A stretch of DNA of 64,000 nucleotides from Candidatus Uhrbacteria bacterium (GTDB lineage: Bacteria > Patescibacteriota > Patescibacteriia > 2-12-FULL-60-25). Each line of letters begins with the position of its first letter. Position 1 is the first letter of the stretch. Shown here piece by piece: positions 3,062 through 60,146 of this stretch. The stretch covers positions 1 to 64,000 of the forward strand of contig JADZEJ010000003.1 of assembly GCA_020850575.1 (NCBI GenBank), in the 5' to 3' direction. Made by a program: the position numbers and the translations under genes. The notes under the pieces are model-generated. The model had not been told where the DNA came from and did no database searches. It saw nothing but the letters and a program-made list of their open reading frames with translations.

Positions 3062-4948
3062 ATGTGTGGCATCGCCGGGATTTTAAAAAAAGACGGTTCT
3101 CAGCCCGACGAGGGGCTGCTTAAGCGCATGCAGCAAGCGATCCATCATCGAGGTCCGGATGCTCAGGGGCTACGGCTGTTCTCGGGCTGTGGCTTAGTTC
3201 ATTGCCGTCTTTCGATTATTGATTTAAGCCCTGCAGGCGCCCAGCCCTTAACCGATGCTTCAGGCAGATACTGGATCGTTTTTAATGGAGAGATTTATAA
3301 CTATCGCGAATTACGATCAGAACTTGAAGCGCGAGGGGCTACATTTCAGACGCAAACTGACACCGAGGTAATTATTGAAGGTTATCGTAGCTGGGGAACA
3401 AAGGTTGTAGAACGACTACGCGGCATGTTTGCTTTTGCCATTTGGGATACACAGGAGCAGGCGCTTTTTATGGCACGTGATCATATCGGGAAAAAACCAT
3501 TATTCTATACAATAAATACTGGAAATTTCTTTTTTGCTTCTGAATTAAAAGCGCTTCAAGCCGTGTGTCCTGCTAATGTAGATTGGGATGCGGTGCGACT
3601 TTTTCTTGGTTTGCAATATGTTCCATCGCCAAAAACCGGATTTATTGGAATTGAGCAATTACCTCCATCAAGTTTTTTGATTTGGAGTAAGGGAAATATT
3701 CAGATTAAAACCTATACCGTCCAACATATATCGGTAGTCGATTCATTACTTAGTGAAAAAGCTTCGGATGCTGAATTACTTCATCGTTTTGAGGATGCTG
3801 TGCGTATCCGCCTGCTTGCAAGTGATGTCCCCGTGGCTGCATTTCTTTCCGGCGGAATTGATTCAGCTGCAATTGTTGCATTTGCTTCTAAACAAGTATC
3901 TTCTCCACTCAAAACATTCACCATGGGTTTTGAAGATGGGGAATTCGACGAAAGAGATCAGGCGCAAACGCTGGCAAAACACTTTGGAACCGATCATCAT
4001 GCTTTTTTAGCAAAACCGGAAGATTTATTGCGCATTGCTGATGAAGTTATTCATCATTATGATGCGCCATATGCAGATTCATCCGCCTTACCCTTGTGGT
4101 TATTAGCCGAACAGACGGCAAAGCAAGTAAAAGTTGTGTTAACAGGTGATGGAGGTGATGAATTATTCGGTGGGTATCGTCGCTATCTTCATTTGTTACG
4201 AGGTGAGCAAATTGCGCGCACTCCGCTTTTTGGTTCTTGGGCTGGACGTAATATGCGTAAAATAGGCACCTGGTTTCATGATACGGACATAGTTCGTATG
4301 GGGCGCTATATTGAAGTCTTGCGCACCAAGCCGAGTAGCGCATACGGCGAGCTGTTTACCGGAGCCTATTTTGATTCGCAGGATCTAAGTCATGTCTTTA
4401 AACCAGATTTTTTGAAACAAACTGCTCCATCGGATGCTGTAGAATATGTTTCAAATTTTGCATCAAAATCGAAGTCAATGCCTGAATCAATTCTCGCACA
4501 AGCGATGAATTTTGATCTCTATTCTTACATATCAGATGATTTAAATGTCAAAATGGATCGAGCAACCATGCGCTTTGGTCTCGAAGCACGTTCACCATTT
4601 TTAGATCAAGAAATGCTTGCTTTTGCCGCCCAGCTTCCGTTGAAAGAAAAAGTGGCGCATGGTAAGACCAAAATAGCCTTAAAACGAGCCTTGAAAGGTA
4701 TTATTCCCGATGATGTGATACAAAGACAAAAACGAGGTTTTCAAGTTCCATTAGCTGTTTGGTTTCGCGGTCCATTAAAACAAGCTTTCGCTGAACGTTG
4801 TTTGGATCAACAAGCAGCACTGGCAAAAATCGTTGAACTTGAAGAAGTAAAACGACTAGTTGAAGCAAATGATGCGGGAGCAAACCATGGCAATCGATTA
4901 TGGATGCTATATAGTTTGGCGACTTGGTTAAATGGACACATTTCATAA
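3062..4948 (+). CDS. asnB: Asparagine synthase (glutamine-hydrolysing)
   Basis: The protein starts MCGIAGIL, so Cys2 becomes the N-terminal nucleophile of the class II glutaminase domain after Met removal; this fixes the start. The glutaminase domain covers about residues 2-200 and the ATP-pyrophosphatase domain about 235-600, with the PP-loop SGGIDSAA. The length of 628 is typical of AsnB. It makes asparagine from aspartate, glutamine and ATP, but AsnB paralogues inside polysaccharide loci often amidate a uronic acid instead. The location, first in a run of glycosyltransferase genes, makes that alternative plausible. It overlaps or nearly abuts the next gene. Confidence 0.92.
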   Translation: MCGIAGILKKDGSQPDEGLLKRMQQAIHHRGPDAQGLRLFSGCGLVHCRLSIIDLSPAGAQPLTDASGRYWIVFNGEIYNYRELRSELEARGATFQTQTDTEVIIEGYRSWGTKVVERLRGMFAFAIWDTQEQALFMARDHIGKKPLFYTINTGNFFFASELKALQAVCPANVDWDAVRLFLGLQYVPSPKTGFIGIEQLPPSSFLIWSKGNIQIKTYTVQHISVVDSLLSEKASDAELLHRFEDAVRIRLLASDVPVAAFLSGGIDSAAIVAFASKQVSSPLKTFTMGFEDGEFDERDQAQTLAKHFGTDHHAFLAKPEDLLRIADEVIHHYDAPYADSSALPLWLLAEQTAKQVKVVLTGDGGDELFGGYRRYLHLLRGEQIARTPLFGSWAGRNMRKIGTWFHDTDIVRMGRYIEVLRTKPSSAYGELFTGAYFDSQDLSHVFKPDFLKQTAPSDAVEYVSNFASKSKSMPESILAQAMNFDLYSYISDDLNVKMDRATMRFGLEARSPFLDQEMLAFAAQLPLKEKVAHGKTKIALKRALKGIIPDDVIQRQKRGFQVPLAVWFRGPLKQAFAERCLDQQAALAKIVELEEVKRLVEANDAGANHGNRLWMLYSLATWLNGHIS

Positions 4949-6392
4949 AAGTATGGAAAAAAAGTGCATCGTGGTAATTGGTGGCGCAGGTTTTATCGGC
5001 GCGGCTTTGTGTAAGGAATTAGTACCACAAGAGCACCGCATTATTTCGGTTGATAACTATTTCACGGGCAGTACTGAACGACACATTTCTGGTGTTGAAT
5101 ATCGTTATGGACATTCTCGTGATATTGCACAAATTGTTCCCGAGTCACCCGATCTTGTATTCCATTTCGGAGAGTACTCTCGAGTAGAAAAAAGTTTTGA
5201 AGATCCGATTCAAGTTATTTGGGATCTAAACATTGCAGGAACATTTTCTGTATTAGAGTTTTGTCGCAAAAAAAAGTGTAAATTGGTATATGCGGGTTCA
5301 AGTACAAAATTTGCCGATGATGGTGAAGGAAAAAACCAAAGTCCATATGCCTGGAGTAAGTCAGCCAACTCTGAGCTCGTTTGTAACTATGGAAAATGGT
5401 TTGATCTCGATTTTGCAATTACCTATTTTTATAATGTATATGGCGAAGGAGAGATTTCAACTGGTCCATATGCGACAGTTATTGGTATCTTTAAGCAATT
5501 GTATGAGCGCGGATTGCCTTTAACTGTTGTTTCACCTGGAACACAAGCGCGTTGTTTCACGCACATTTCAGATATTGTAAATGGACTAATGCTCGTTGCA
5601 GAAAAAGGGAAAGGAGACGGTTATGATATTGGGAATCCACAAGCTTTTTCAATGATACAAGTTGCAAAAATGTTTAGTGAAGATATTATGATGCTTCCTG
5701 AGCGCAAAGGGAATCGTCAATCAGCACATATTGATCCTTCAAAGATACGAGGGCTTGGCTGGGAACCTCGTATCGCATTGACTAATCATATCGAACAATT
5801 TAAGAAATCAATAGTGCCATCAAGTGGAATTGAAAAACGAGTACTTGTTTTATCCACGAGTTTTTTTCCGGATGAGGGTCCGGCAGAGAGGGCGTTATTA
5901 GAAGTGATTCACGAAATGAAAGATATTCAATTTGATATTATTACGACTCAGACAACAAAAGAAAGTACAACGAACGTATTGCCAAATGCAAATATTTACA
6001 GAGTTGGAAGAGGTGATATGTTTGATAAATATCGATTGATGCTTGCTGGAGTAAAAAAAGCTCAAGAACTAAGCAAACAACATTCGTATATTTTTACCTG
6101 GGCAATTATGGCGAGCTATGCCGCAATCGCTGCATCGTATTTCCGACGAAATTCATCTACTCCACTTCTTATCTCTCTCGCAGATCACAAAATCGATCAA
6201 GTGAGACCATGGTTACGCTTTGTTTTGCGTCATATTTTTAAAAAAGCAGATCAGATATCGGTATCTTCCATCCAACAAGAACAAGAGGTTGGGCGTTTAA
6301 GTTCTCAGCTTTGTGGAATTACGAATAATGCATCTGGAGATGCATTTGCAAATCAAGTTCGCTTTCTCTACAATATGAAACTCAAATCATGA
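4932..6392 (+). CDS. Fused NAD-dependent sugar epimerase/dehydratase and half glycosyltransferase
   Basis: Residues 10-295 are an extended SDR: the NAD-binding loop GGAGFIGAAL near the start and the catalytic YxxxK (SPYAWSK). At about residue 305 a second domain starts with RVLVLSTSFFPDEGPAERA, like the N-terminal Rossmann half of a GT4 enzyme. It runs about 180 residues and ends before the nucleotide-sugar-binding half, so no EX7E motif is present. An ATG at 4953 (residue 8), 4 bases after the asnB stop, is an equally good start. The next gene has its own complete N-terminus, so this is not simply a frameshifted neighbour. The half-domain is either an acceptor-binding relic or a decayed fusion. 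Confidence 0.8.
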   Translation: MDTFHKSMEKKCIVVIGGAGFIGAALCKELVPQEHRIISVDNYFTGSTERHISGVEYRYGHSRDIAQIVPESPDLVFHFGEYSRVEKSFEDPIQVIWDLNIAGTFSVLEFCRKKKCKLVYAGSSTKFADDGEGKNQSPYAWSKSANSELVCNYGKWFDLDFAITYFYNVYGEGEISTGPYATVIGIFKQLYERGLPLTVVSPGTQARCFTHISDIVNGLMLVAEKGKGDGYDIGNPQAFSMIQVAKMFSEDIMMLPERKGNRQSAHIDPSKIRGLGWEPRIALTNHIEQFKKSIVPSSGIEKRVLVLSTSFFPDEGPAERALLEVIHEMKDIQFDIITTQTTKESTTNVLPNANIYRVGRGDMFDKYRLMLAGVKKAQELSKQHSYIFTWAIMASYAAIAASYFRRNSSTPLLISLADHKIDQVRPWLRFVLRHIFKKADQISVSSIQQEQEVGRLSSQLCGITNNASGDAFANQVRFLYNMKLKS

Positions 6393-6395
6393 TTT

Positions 6396-7532
6396 ATGCA
6401 TAAACAAGCTCTTATTTTTTCAACCGCTTACTTCCCAATGGTTGGAGGAGCAGAGGTTGCAATGAAAGAAATTACAGACCGGCTTTCAGATTGGGATTTA
6501 CATGTTTGGTGTGCGCGCATCCGTCCAGGTTTGGCGTCTACGGAACGATGGGAGAATGTCACAATTCGACGTGTAGGTTTTGGTTTCCCAGTAGATAAAT
6601 ATCTATTGCCTTTTTTAGCTGCACCACTTGCCGCATGGAAATTTCGTTCAACAAAACCAGTTGTTTGGGCCTTGCTTGCAAGCTATGGAGGCTTCTCTGC
6701 ATTGGTATATACCTGGTTGCGACCATCTTCAAAAATGCTGCTGACGCTCCAGGAAGGTGATCCTTTGGAGCATTATGATAAACGCACAGGATTCCTTGGA
6801 TTTTTACATCGAGCAATCTTTGTTCGCGCAAATGAAGTTCAGGCAATCAGTAAGTTTTTAGCTAATTGGGCTAAACGCATGGGATTTGCCGGAGATCCGC
6901 ATATCATCCCAAATGGTGTCGATATTTCGCGCTTTACAAAGACGATTTCTGCAGAACGTAGGTATCAGATTAGACAAGAATTCGGAGTAACAGAACAAGA
7001 CATTGTCATCGTCACAGCATCACGTCTTTCTCTAAAAAATGCAGTCGACGACATAATTCGAGCTCTAACTTTCTTACCAGAAAAGTATAAAGTATTAATT
7101 GCAGGTGAGGGAGAAGACAAAAAGATGCTCGAGTCCTTGGCTGCAAATCTCGGTGTCTCATCAAGGGTCGTCTTCTTGGGAAGGCGTAGTCATGATGAGT
7201 TGCCTGGTATTTTGATGAGTGCAGACATGTTTTGTCGCCCTTCGCTTTCAGAAGGTCTCGGAAATTCATTTCTCGAAGCAATGTCGGCAGGGCTCCCGAT
7301 TATTGGTACGCCAGTAGGTGGAATTCCAGATTTTTTGATTGATGGAGAAACCGGGGTTTTTTGTGAACCACGTAGTCCAGAATCTTTAGCAAAAGCGGTG
7401 CTGCGTATCACAGAGGAGCCTGGATTACGCGAAAAACTATCTCGACAAGGTAAGCAAAAAGTAGAAAAAGAATATAATTGGGAACAAATTGTAAAAGACA
7501 TTCGTGAGATAATAAAAAAATTAGATGCATAG
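6396..7532 (+). CDS. GT4-family glycosyltransferase
   Basis: A complete GT4 enzyme of 378 residues. It begins ALIFSTAYFPMVGGAEVA, the glycine loop typical of the family. The C-terminal domain carries NGVDISRF, a KNAVDDIIRAL helix and the EX7E motif EGLGNSFLE, followed by AGLPIIGTPVGGIPD. It starts 3 bases after the upstream fusion gene and overlaps the following GT4 gene by up to 8 bases, so it is part of a coupled plus-strand operon. It probably extends the lipid-linked repeat unit in the cytoplasm. Donor and acceptor are unknown. Confidence 0.9.
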   Translation: MHKQALIFSTAYFPMVGGAEVAMKEITDRLSDWDLHVWCARIRPGLASTERWENVTIRRVGFGFPVDKYLLPFLAAPLAAWKFRSTKPVVWALLASYGGFSALVYTWLRPSSKMLLTLQEGDPLEHYDKRTGFLGFLHRAIFVRANEVQAISKFLANWAKRMGFAGDPHIIPNGVDISRFTKTISAERRYQIRQEFGVTEQDIVIVTASRLSLKNAVDDIIRALTFLPEKYKVLIAGEGEDKKMLESLAANLGVSSRVVFLGRRSHDELPGILMSADMFCRPSLSEGLGNSFLEAMSAGLPIIGTPVGGIPDFLIDGETGVFCEPRSPESLAKAVLRITEEPGLREKLSRQGKQKVEKEYNWEQIVKDIREIIKKLDA

Positions 7533-8649
7533 TATGAAGTATCTATTAGCAACTGGAATTTACCCACCTGATATCGGAGGACCGGCGAGTTTCACGTATG
7601 ATTTTGCTAAGGAACTTGTAAAGTTGGGTCACAAAGTTACGGTTGTATGCTATGGAAATAGTGAAGACCGCAAAGAAGAAGGATGGGATGTCGAATATAT
7701 AACAAAAAAAACACCTGTACTTTTCCGTTATTGGAAATATTTTTTGAAAATTTTTTTCTTAGCTCCAGGTTTTGAAATAGTTTTTTTCCAGGGGCCTGTT
7801 TCCGAAGGGTTTCCTGGTTCAGTTGCATGCGTGCTTCGTAAAAAAAAATACGCACTCAAAATTGTTGGAGATGTTGCTTGGGAACAATACTCGCAAGATA
7901 GTACACAATCACCTGAATTACTTGATGAATTCGTCAAACATCGTCATTTTGGAAAATATCAAATCATGGAATTGATGGAACGTTGGACGGCAAAGAGAGC
8001 TGCGCATGTTTTTGTTCCAAGTCAGTATTTAAAGAAAATCGTTATACAGTGGGGTATTGATGCTTCTCGTATTAAAGTAATCTTAAATACAATTACTCCA
8101 TTCGAATTAGACAAGACACGGGAACAAATACGTAAAAAATTCAATCTAACTGAAAAGATTGTTTTATTTAGTCCTGGAAGAATGGTGCCATGGAAGAACT
8201 TTGATTTTATTTTCCGGCTACTACCAAAGCTGCCAGACATGTATGTGTATGTTTTAGGCGGTGAAGGAACGTGTCTTGAAAAATGGAAAAATACCGTCAA
8301 AGATATTGGAATTGCTGATCGTGTGAGTTTTGTGGGAAGATTAAAGAGGCAGGAAATTGGCGAATGGATGCTAGCTGCAGATGTACATCTTTTACCGTCT
8401 TCCTATGAAGGCTTTCCGCATGTAGTAGCCGAAGCAGCAAGTTTGGGTCTACCAAGCATCGTGAGTGATCGAGGTGGAAATCCAGAAACAAGAGAAATAT
8501 TTCCTGGTTTAGTGCAAGTCGCGCCATTTCTTGATGAGCATTTTTGGATAAGCGCACTCCAAAGCATTCCAGAAAGAAAATCTTCTTTACAGCCAAGAAA
8601 ATTTACTGAATTAGTTCATGAATATATTACAAATATAAACTCAGTATGA
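7525..8649 (+). CDS. GT4-family glycosyltransferase
   Basis: A GT4 enzyme of 374 residues. The N-terminus reads KYLLATGIYPPDIGGPASF, a classic GT4 start; Met4 (base 7534) is directly after the upstream stop and may be the real start. The donor-binding domain has PGRMVPWKNFDFI and EX7E as EGFPHVVAE, then LGLPSIVSDRGGNPE. Its stop codon overlaps an ATG at 8646 (ATGA), which couples it to the interrupted methyltransferase gene downstream. It is part of the same glycan operon as its neighbours; specificity is unknown. Confidence 0.9.
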   Translation: MHSMKYLLATGIYPPDIGGPASFTYDFAKELVKLGHKVTVVCYGNSEDRKEEGWDVEYITKKTPVLFRYWKYFLKIFFLAPGFEIVFFQGPVSEGFPGSVACVLRKKKYALKIVGDVAWEQYSQDSTQSPELLDEFVKHRHFGKYQIMELMERWTAKRAAHVFVPSQYLKKIVIQWGIDASRIKVILNTITPFELDKTREQIRKKFNLTEKIVLFSPGRMVPWKNFDFIFRLLPKLPDMYVYVLGGEGTCLEKWKNTVKDIGIADRVSFVGRLKRQEIGEWMLAADVHLLPSSYEGFPHVVAEAASLGLPSIVSDRGGNPETREIFPGLVQVAPFLDEHFWISALQSIPERKSSLQPRKFTELVHEYITNINSV

Positions 8650-9248
8650 AATCCCATACTCAATTTGAAGCATAGAGTTTTCAACAGATTACTCAAACAA
8701 ATAATCTTATTTTAGATGTTTGTGGAGGGTCTCGATTTATGAAGGGGATGAAAAAGTACGAGCATTTATTTGTGAATTGTACGTATAAAACTATGGATGT
8801 TTCAAAAGATTATAATCCAGATATTGTAGCTGATATTCACGACATTCCAATTGAATCAAATACAGTTGATGCAATTATTTGTCGCTCAGTTCTAGAACAT
8901 GTAAGGTCTCCAGAAAGAGCTTTACAAGAAATGTTTTGGATTTTAAAACCAGGAGGGAGATTATTTGTTCAAGTACCATCAATATACCCCTATCATGCTC
9001 GTACCGGAAACGGTGCGTATCCGGATTATTGGAGGTTCTTTGAGAGTACTTTGCGTGAATTGTTTCAGTCATTTTCTCATATAGAATTTGCAAGACATGG
9101 TGGATGGTTTAGCTCGATGGCTTTTTTCCTACCTGGTCAAGCGAATCTAGGGAAGATGTGGCAATCCATTGCTTCAATATTAGATACGGTGTGTAAAACA
9201 GATAAAAGAACGACTACACCAATCCTGTACTGTTTCTGTAAGAAATAA
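8646..9248 (+). pseudogene. SAM-dependent methyltransferase with in-frame amber codon 10
   Basis: A class I methyltransferase of about 200 codons. The natural start is the ATG at 8646, coupled to the upstream gene by an ATGA overlap, but codon 10 is TAG (8673-8675). The same frame stays open through the SAM-binding motif I (LILDVCGGSRF, about 8706-8738) to the stop at 9248. The first later ATG (8739) starts after motif I, so a protein from there would lack part of its cofactor site. Motif IV-like ADIHDIPI, DAIICRSVLEHV and LKPGGRLFVQVPS are intact. TGG to TAG is the simplest change (FEA-W-SFQQI). It is a fresh nonsense mutation, a sequencing error or a site of read-through. Confidence 0.75.
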
Positions 9249-9252
9249 AAAT

Positions 9253-11304
9253 ATGAAGATTTTAATGCTTAGTCGTGATGCACGAGGAATTGATCAAGAT
9301 TCTTCTACTTTTTTACGTTGGAAAACTATAGCAGCTAAAGGAATTGAACTACGCTGTATCGTAAGCTCATTCAAAGCATCGGATGAATTTTGTGGAAAAG
9401 TTTGTGTAAAATCTACAGGTGGATCATATAAGCTGTTGCGGTATTGGCGACTATGGAAAATAGCGAAGAATTGGTCTGAGGATGTTGATCTTATTACGGC
9501 TCAGGACCCATTTGAATTAGGATTAATCGCCTGGTTTATTGGAAAGATACGAAAAAAACCAGTTGAAATCCAAGATCATGGAGGTTTTTTTGATGACAAA
9601 CCAAACGGCGAACCCCTCTGGTTAATCCGAAAATATTTTGCATATTGGCTCATGAAGCGTGTATCCGCAATCCGTACGGTGAGCCCAAGAAGCTTTGAAA
9701 AGCTAGTACAATATGGATTTGGTTCAAAGACAATCCTTTTACCAATCAATGTTGATAAACGTTTTGCAGAAGCTATATATAGACCAATTCCGCATCATAT
9801 TCTGAGCGTGTCACGACTTATAGTAGTAAAGAATCTTAGTCTATCACTAGAAGTTTTTGCAGCATATTTTGCACGCCACCCAGAGGCTCGTTATACCATT
9901 GTCGGGGATGGACCAGAAAAAGATCTGTTAAAAATGCAAGCGGTGAAATTACGTATCGCGCATGTCGTAGATTTTGTTGGAGAACAAGATCCGTTGCCGT
10001 GGTTGGAAAAAGCTGCTTGCTTCCTCTTTTTATCTCAACATGAGGGTTGGGGAATTGCCCCGGTAGAAGCAGCGACGGTAGGTGTTCCGGTAGTCATGAC
10101 CGAAACTGGTTGTGCCACACTATTAAAACAACAGGGTCTAGCTTTTCTTGTAGAAGAATGCTCCATCACTTCAATGACGGATGTAGTTGAACAAGCGATT
10201 GCACGTGGAGAAAAGTCTACCGCTAAATACCTTGAAGATTATACAATCCAATATGCAGCTCACTGGGAAGAAAAGAAAAAATCACGTATCTTAGTTCTTG
10301 TGCAGGCAGTCGATACAAAGGATGCATTGATGGGATTTTTTGTTGATTGGTTACGCGCAGCTTCGAAAGAATTTGCAGAGATTACAGTTCTTGCACTTCG
10401 GACAAGTGATATTTTAATTGCAAAGAATGTGCGTGTAATTCCGCTTCGAAAAGATATCTCTTCATTAAAGATTGGTATACTTCTGAATGCATGGTGGTTA
10501 TCTTGGAAATGGCGTCATGAATATCATGGTGTATATGTGCGTGGAGATATTCAATATGTTTTGGGTTGCGCATTGCTTTGGCGAATTTTGAATAAACGTA
10601 TTGTTTTATGGTTTGCTCACTACAAGCCACACAAATTACTTAATGTGGCAGCTCATATGGCGCATATTGTTGCAACCTCTGTACCTGAGGCTTGTGCGTA
10701 TAGTGGACACAAACGCCGTATAATTGGTCAAGCGATCGATCCGATTATTTTTCCATTTTACAAAAAAATGGAAAATAAAATGAGGGTTTTAATTTTTGGT
10801 CGCGTATCTCCAGCAAAACGCATCGCCGAAGCAGTTCGGGAACTTAAGAAAATGGATATTCCAGGAATGGAAGTAGAAATTATTGGTAAAGCATTGGATG
10901 ATCAGTATCGGAGATTGATTTTAGAAGAACTGCGTGATGCGACAAATATCCGCTGGAAAGAGCTAGATATATCTTTTGCAGAAATCCCCACATTGTTTAA
11001 ACAGTATGATATTCTTTTGAATTCAACCAATGGAAGCTTGGATAAAGTAATCTTGGAAGCAGCATTTAGTGGAGTTATTCCGATTGTAGAGACTTCAGGT
11101 ATAAAAAGCTTTTTGCCACCTTTGTACTCATTTCTTCACACAATAAGCCAAGAGGAACGAAGAATTGCATTGCAAAAACTTTCCGATATGTCGCAAGAAA
11201 ATAGGCAAATAATCGCGAAAGAAATTGCACAATCCGCAATCAACCATCATTCTATAACGCATCAATTAAAAGAATTAGTGCGTATATTTGATTTATCAAA
11301 ATAA
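9253..11304 (+). CDS. Two-domain glycosyltransferase (tandem GT4 modules)
   Basis: At 683 residues this is about twice the GT4 length. Residues 1-340 form a GT4 module with SRLIVVKNLSLSLEVF, VGDGPEKDLL and EX7E as EGWGIAPVE. Residues 345-683 form a second GT-B-like module: a start ILVLVQAVDTKDALMGFF, VLIFGRVSPAKRIAEAV as the donor-domain signature and NGSLDKVILEAAFSGVIPIV in place of a standard EX7E. It begins 4 bases after the methyltransferase. A bifunctional enzyme that adds two consecutive sugars is the simplest reading; the second module is divergent and could be non-catalytic. Confidence 0.85.
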   Translation: MKILMLSRDARGIDQDSSTFLRWKTIAAKGIELRCIVSSFKASDEFCGKVCVKSTGGSYKLLRYWRLWKIAKNWSEDVDLITAQDPFELGLIAWFIGKIRKKPVEIQDHGGFFDDKPNGEPLWLIRKYFAYWLMKRVSAIRTVSPRSFEKLVQYGFGSKTILLPINVDKRFAEAIYRPIPHHILSVSRLIVVKNLSLSLEVFAAYFARHPEARYTIVGDGPEKDLLKMQAVKLRIAHVVDFVGEQDPLPWLEKAACFLFLSQHEGWGIAPVEAATVGVPVVMTETGCATLLKQQGLAFLVEECSITSMTDVVEQAIARGEKSTAKYLEDYTIQYAAHWEEKKKSRILVLVQAVDTKDALMGFFVDWLRAASKEFAEITVLALRTSDILIAKNVRVIPLRKDISSLKIGILLNAWWLSWKWRHEYHGVYVRGDIQYVLGCALLWRILNKRIVLWFAHYKPHKLLNVAAHMAHIVATSVPEACAYSGHKRRIIGQAIDPIIFPFYKKMENKMRVLIFGRVSPAKRIAEAVRELKKMDIPGMEVEIIGKALDDQYRRLILEELRDATNIRWKELDISFAEIPTLFKQYDILLNSTNGSLDKVILEAAFSGVIPIVETSGIKSFLPPLYSFLHTISQEERRIALQKLSDMSQENRQIIAKEIAQSAINHHSITHQLKELVRIFDLSK

Positions 11305-59340: not shown

Positions 59341-59393
59341 AATAAAAACTCACGACATGTGAGCTTCTGGAGCTTCTATGAAAACAAACTGAT

Positions 59394-59585
59394 TTAGGTG
59401 GATTCTTTTGAATCCCAGCTAACACGATTAGGACATTTCTTGATCAAGCATAGTAGTTCGTTGAATTGAGTAGCTGAAATAATATTCAGCTTGTTGCAAT
59501 ACCTACATTTTACTTCGATATTGCCCTCAACGAGCAACCCCTTGAAGAACAGTTTATGACAGGACGTGCATCGATATTCATTCAT
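59394..59585 (-). CDS. Com-like small zinc-ribbon protein
   Basis: From the ATG at 59585 the protein is 63 residues; the frame runs back to a GTG at 59612. YRCTSCHKLFFKGLLVEGNI and VKCRYCNKLN match the CxxC-x(n)-CxxC zinc ribbon of the Com family (Mu-like prophage regulator of mom translation, and standalone homologues in many bacteria). It is the first gene after the NrdR boxes, 53 bases or more before nrdD, so it is probably transcribed with it. A nucleic-acid-binding role is likely; the target is unknown. Confidence 0.65.
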   Translation of the reverse strand: MNEYRCTSCHKLFFKGLLVEGNIEVKCRYCNKLNIISATQFNELLCLIKKCPNRVSWDSKEST

Positions 59586-59671
59586 GCAATTAGCCATACT
59601 CTGTGTACACACGATAGCGTCAAAGACGTGTAACGTAAAGGTATGTTAGATTAGCGAAATTTTTTGGTTAT

Positions 59672-59687
59672 CCACAATATATAGTGG
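59672..59687. promoter_or_regulatory. NrdR box 1
   Basis: CCACAATATATAGTGG matches the NrdR consensus acaCwAtATaTwGtgt, as I recall it, at 14 of 16 positions. It overlaps the likely -35 region (TTGTGG) of a minus-strand promoter whose -10 is TAATCT (59653-59648). Confidence 0.85.
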
Positions 59688-59703
59688 TAAAAATATTTTT
59701 ATA

Positions 59704-59719
59704 ACACAATATGTTGTAT
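59704..59719. promoter_or_regulatory. NrdR box 2
   Basis: ACACAATATGTTGTAT matches the recalled NrdR consensus at 14 of 16 positions. It is separated from box 1 by 16 bases (32 between centres, three helical turns), the spacing known for paired NrdR boxes. Confidence 0.85.
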
Positions 59720-59764
59720 TGCTAGAAAATAGAAAGTTATACGTTCTGAGTTAAAAATAACAGC

Positions 59765-59845
59765 ATGAAATCAAAATTTCGACCTCAAAAAAAGAGTTTT
59801 CATGGTACAAAAAAATGGGAAGAAAATGATGAAGATAGCGTTTAA
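59765..59845 (+). CDS. Possible 26-residue basic peptide
   Basis: An ATG frame encoding a short peptide with a basic N-terminus (MKSKFRPQKKSF) and acidic C-terminus. There is no good ribosome-binding site. It is listed only because it lies in the regulatory gap, divergent from the nrd operon and 35 bases before the NifU-like gene; it may well be chance. Confidence 0.25.
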   Translation: MKSKFRPQKKSFHGTKKWEENDEDSV

Positions 59846-59880
59846 TATAAAACAGGGGTATAACAAATACGCAAAATCAT

Positions 59881-60114
59881 ATGCAACAATATTATGCAGT
59901 TTTACAAGATACGATAGACATGTTTGAGTCTTGTGGTTGCACAGTATCTTTAACGTCTCCTTCACTGAATCATGTGACGTTAACGATTAATGGACCGATA
60001 CAGATGTGTCCTAGCAGTATCTTTGAAGAGTATGTCGATCAAGCAAAAAAAATAATGAGTGAAACATTTACTGATATTGCATTTGAAGTGTGTATAATTG
60101 AAACTGAATACTAA
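59881..60114 (+). CDS. NifU C-terminal-like small protein with a lost Fe-S cysteine
   Basis: A 77-residue protein. The segment VTLTINGPIQMCPSS, followed by a helix and TDIAFEVCII, aligns with the NifU C-terminal domain, whose pattern is V.v.L.GaCggCPSS. The second cluster Cys is kept (MCPSS) but the first position is Ile. It is divergent from the nrd operon across the NrdR boxes. If the likeness is real, it is a degenerate relative that cannot bind a cluster in the usual way. No other family comes to mind. Confidence 0.5.
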   Translation: MQQYYAVLQDTIDMFESCGCTVSLTSPSLNHVTLTINGPIQMCPSSIFEEYVDQAKKIMSETFTDIAFEVCIIETEY

Positions 60115-60146
60115 GTCAGTATTTTTTCATCAAGAAGAACAACATT

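Follow-up and report, generated by a model that had tools for sequence, protein, structure and literature searches.

The question raised by this locus is why the frame of a class I SAM methyltransferase, in the genome (about 1.04 Mb) of a member of the Patescibacteria, should be interrupted by an amber codon close to its start, and whether that codon is decoded, bypassed, erroneous or simply a stop. The gene occupies positions 8646-9248 on the forward strand of the window, by which we mean the whole 64,000-nucleotide stretch of DNA that was analysed. It comprises 200 codons counting the TAG at codon 10 (8673-8675, forward strand) and ends with a TAA (9246-9248). The sequence-only reading had placed the amber codon at 8674, which is its middle base, and had proposed that the ATG at 8646 is coupled to the stop upstream. 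Both statements hold, as the start shares the ATGA at 8646-8649 with the TGA of a GT4-type glycosyltransferase gene (7525-8649, forward strand), and the frame remains open after the TAG (SFQQITQTNNLILDVCGGSRFMKG...) up to the terminal TAA. Apart from the TAG we find no second stop, no frameshift and no excess divergence. A genome search recovered the methyltransferase gene as a single copy, with its 5' segment occurring once; there is no paralogue that could replace it.

Homology across the stop

The closest intact orthologue, locus L021, encodes 200 residues in a genome of another genus of the same family (G007; Patescibacteria group bacterium isolate Gw_Eff_bin_226, JAGOQX010000001.1). With this sister sequence as query, residues 7-195 align to 8661-9230 with the one TAG inside the match (E 8e-68, 54% identity). 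The two loci, at 54-55% identity, share the segment RFMKGMKK and the neighbours on both sides, namely the GT4-type glycosyltransferase upstream and a two-unit glycosyltransferase downstream (9253-11304, forward strand, 683 aa in the window and 718 aa next to L021). They differ in that the frame of L021 is open and has Gly in motif I, whereas the window gene carries the TAG and a Cys. Among 381 genomes searched, 23 others gave a match at an E value below 1e-20, and in each of these the matched stretch was free of stops. Since homology to intact methyltransferases runs through the TAG and these 23 genomes lack the stop, the interruption is not a chance juxtaposition. No relatives of the methyltransferase were found in viral contigs, and those in plasmids are only distant, at about 29-32% identity among the matches listed. 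A distant relative (L012, G023:C44:1840-2238) has two in-frame TGA codons in the matched stretch, which may point to a second case of gene interruption, to a frameshift or to a contig of lower quality. At 9015-9035 (AYPDYWR) and 8736-8765 (FMKGMKKYE) the codons of the window gene and L021 are nearly identical, although the proteins share only about 54% of their residues. As a sign of an overlapping element this identity is borderline, with a longest identical run of 23 nt (AYPDYWR) and a P value of 0.03 to 0.05 under synonymous shuffling.

Read through the TAG, the frame matches Pfam Methyltransf_11 at residues 24-108 with 53.8 bits, against a curated cut-off of 21.2. The match covers profile positions 2-95, and only 47-95 in the product from 8739; motif I is thus restored in the read-through frame, and the prediction that translation from 8739 would lose it is borne out. 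The segment LILDVCGGSRF, previously taken as the SAM-binding motif, does lie at the position of motif I (LDVCGGS, codons 23-29, 8712-8732, forward strand; a predicted strand at residues 21-25 followed by a loop), but LDVCGG is atypical of that motif. Its first Gly is replaced by Cys at codon 26 (8721-8723), where 31 of 31 relatives have Gly, and this Cys is unique among the 32 sequences. Cys also occurs here in some functional UbiE/MenG-type methyltransferases, so the replacement need not be damage. In common with class I enzymes of the Methyltransf_11 and Methyltransf_23 families, the read-through protein has the motif I region, the SVLEHV and LKPGG regions, a Rossmann-type order in the structural model and scores above the curated cut-offs. 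It differs from them in the TAG, in the Cys and in a Trp at codon 98 (8937-8939, forward strand), where relatives have the Arg that precedes ILKPGG (RILKPGG). A fold search returned generic class I methyltransferases, with a poor superposition (rmsd about 10) that says little beyond the fold class. With Cys in place of the first Gly in the read-through frame and motif I missing entirely from the 8739 product, we file the window gene as an interrupted member of the Methyltransf_11 family and not as a working enzyme.

Decoding of the TAG and the start at 8739

TAG acts as a stop in this organism. It terminates 7 of the 57 long ORFs of the window (TAA 36, TGA 14), and the gene for release factor 1 (RF1) is present, scores over its curated cut-off and has an open frame, in agreement with the earlier view that TAG is a normal stop here and that recoding across the genome is unlikely. 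None of the 44 tRNA genes detected with the Rfam model, each read with ARAGORN, has the anticodon CTA, and the model of the pyrrolysyl-tRNA synthetase PylS yields only weak matches far below the cut-off; most control genomes give the same result. Genome-wide recoding is rejected on these grounds, and the suggestion of suppression by an amber suppressor tRNA finds no support in the same survey. A reassignment of TAG to a sense codon, or a pyrrolysine-type system, would have nothing but the stop itself in its favour and, against real genes that end in TAG and an intact RF1, its probability is negligible.

The residue that preceded the TAG had been suspected to be Trp, encoded by TGG. However, the alignment with 31 relatives has E, K, N, D, Q or A in this column and W in none, which leaves TGG as the original codon without support, and Trp is rejected as the original residue. 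The first predicted helix spans residues 3-17, before strand 1, and includes codon 10, whose position is tolerant of many residues. The residues of the relatives are compatible with an ordinary nonsense change.

Could the stop nevertheless be bypassed? It is possible that the TAG is read through at a low level by near-cognate decoding, giving a little full-length enzyme, but we regard this as quite improbable. A body conserved at a normal rate would agree with it, as would a TAG column in which many inserted amino acids would be acceptable. Many in-frame stops in bacteria have been argued to be tolerated rather than to mark pseudogenes, with read-through as the proposed explanation (PMC7918605). 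The window gene resembles the stops under purifying selection described there in the normal conservation of the gene body despite the stop. However, the window stop is found in one genome only and conserved in no relative; moreover, RF1 is present, a suppressor tRNA is lacking among the tRNA genes detected, and motif I has an unusual Cys. Nothing singles out the window TAG as conserved or decoded.

Somewhat less improbable, although still unlikely, is that the gene now starts at the ATG at 8739 and encodes a shortened protein without motif I in a non-catalytic role. An ORF annotator would call this frame (8739-9248, forward strand, 169 aa), whose start is the first usable ATG without read-through and has a GGAGG (8724-8728) 10 bases ahead of it. 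Shine-Dalgarno-like sites precede only 2 of the 35 window starts checked, 8739 included, the 16S rRNA retains the anti-Shine-Dalgarno GGATCACCTCCTTTCT, and the body is well conserved, with a leave-one-out score of 225 bits against 229 for the sister. Yet the GGAGG lies within two adjacent Gly codons of motif I. Ten of the 31 relatives have it too, nearly all of them without an ATG behind it, while L021 has the ATG at the restart site and lacks the GGAGG. It is thus most likely a by-product of the Gly-Gly codons, and an internal start with a Shine-Dalgarno sequence is ruled out as a conserved feature. In addition, the head of the frame, before 8739, continues to match the family, with 24 bits, which a long-abandoned head would not do. 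This leave-one-out score is the lowest of 15 (the others range from 34 to 63), in part because the stop is scored as X and because of the Cys in motif I. As Shine-Dalgarno sites are few in this genome, the TAG might also be imagined as a brake, in which a nine-codon leader peptide ending in TAG limits the amount of methyltransferase, while rare read-through gives full-length enzyme or a restart at 8739 gives a motif-less partner protein; we give this a slightly lower probability than read-through alone.

Probable recent loss or assembly error

On balance, and without great confidence, we regard the TAG as a nonsense mutation of very recent origin or as a variant within the population that the assembly happened to capture. 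Ribosomes passing from the upstream glycosyltransferase to the ATG at 8646 would stop after nine codons, and a product started at 8739 would lack motif I and, judging from the fold class, should not bind SAM. Owing to the premature stop and the missing motif, the methyltransferase gene would have little or no activity in the lineage that was sequenced. Alternatively, the assembly may represent one allele of a population that is in the process of losing the gene. Both the authenticity of the TAG base and the absence of a full-length protein are inferred.

A loss of this kind would have to be young. The end branch of the window gene is as long as that of the sister (0.57 against 0.60), from which it follows that the loss, if real, is recent. 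Of 26 near-invariant columns, the read-through protein departs at two, the motif I Gly and the Arg at codon 98, and another relative with an open frame departs at four. The two departures fit an early loss of constraint, but they are not exceptional. Simulated neutral evolution at 0.04 changes per site produces about 2 changes at near-invariant columns and about 1 further stop, and 38% of the runs lack any further stop; a dead gene would therefore have died recently. The locus shares with young bacterial pseudogenes interrupted by nonsense changes the single in-frame stop, the preserved gene, the intact relatives and the lack of a decoding apparatus. It differs in that the stop is known from one genome, the only one of its genus covered, and may or may not be fixed.

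The most serious competitor, to which we assign a clearly smaller but substantial probability, is that the living gene is intact and that the TAG arose in the assembly, through a wrong consensus base or through strain variants that were merged incorrectly. Since it is the only frame-breaking lesion, such an error explains the stop itself equally well: the lesion is of the single-base type, the remainder of the 200-codon frame is open, shows normal divergence and has no second lesion, and the genome is known only as a 7-contig assembly. However, no other interrupted genes are apparent among the 57 ORFs that cover 94% of the window, and the departures to Cys and Trp would have to be explained separately. 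Substitution errors that create a stop are rare in deep assemblies. Of the explanations offered by the sequence-only reading, knock-out and error are retained as the leading ones. What the interrupted methyltransferase seems to show is an ordinary, recent loss of function or a wrong base in the assembly, and no new reading of the code.

Genomic setting and consequences

The methyltransferase gene is located in a cluster of the surface-polysaccharide type. In the same window, a frame at 4932-6392 (forward strand, 486 aa) joins an NAD-dependent epimerase to a GT4-like glycosyltransferase of which only the N-terminal half is present (about residues 303-486). Three genomes of the same family (G033, G016 and G035; loci L109-L111) have matches to this tail within open frames of 484-495 aa, for which reason the fusion looks like a stable architecture and not an accident. 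Elsewhere, an 806-base stretch (59341-60146) of this 94% coding window has no ORF of at least 120 aa; an 87-codon open frame lies inside it at 59851-60111.

Nothing about the interrupted methyltransferase points to a changed genetic code. It does carry a warning for annotation, as gene callers would report a methyltransferase of 169 aa from 8739 that has no SAM-binding motif. If the stop is real, a reduced Patescibacteria genome would have lost the activity of one more modifying enzyme of a sugar cluster, and the loss of the methyltransferase could change the glycan while the operon stays.
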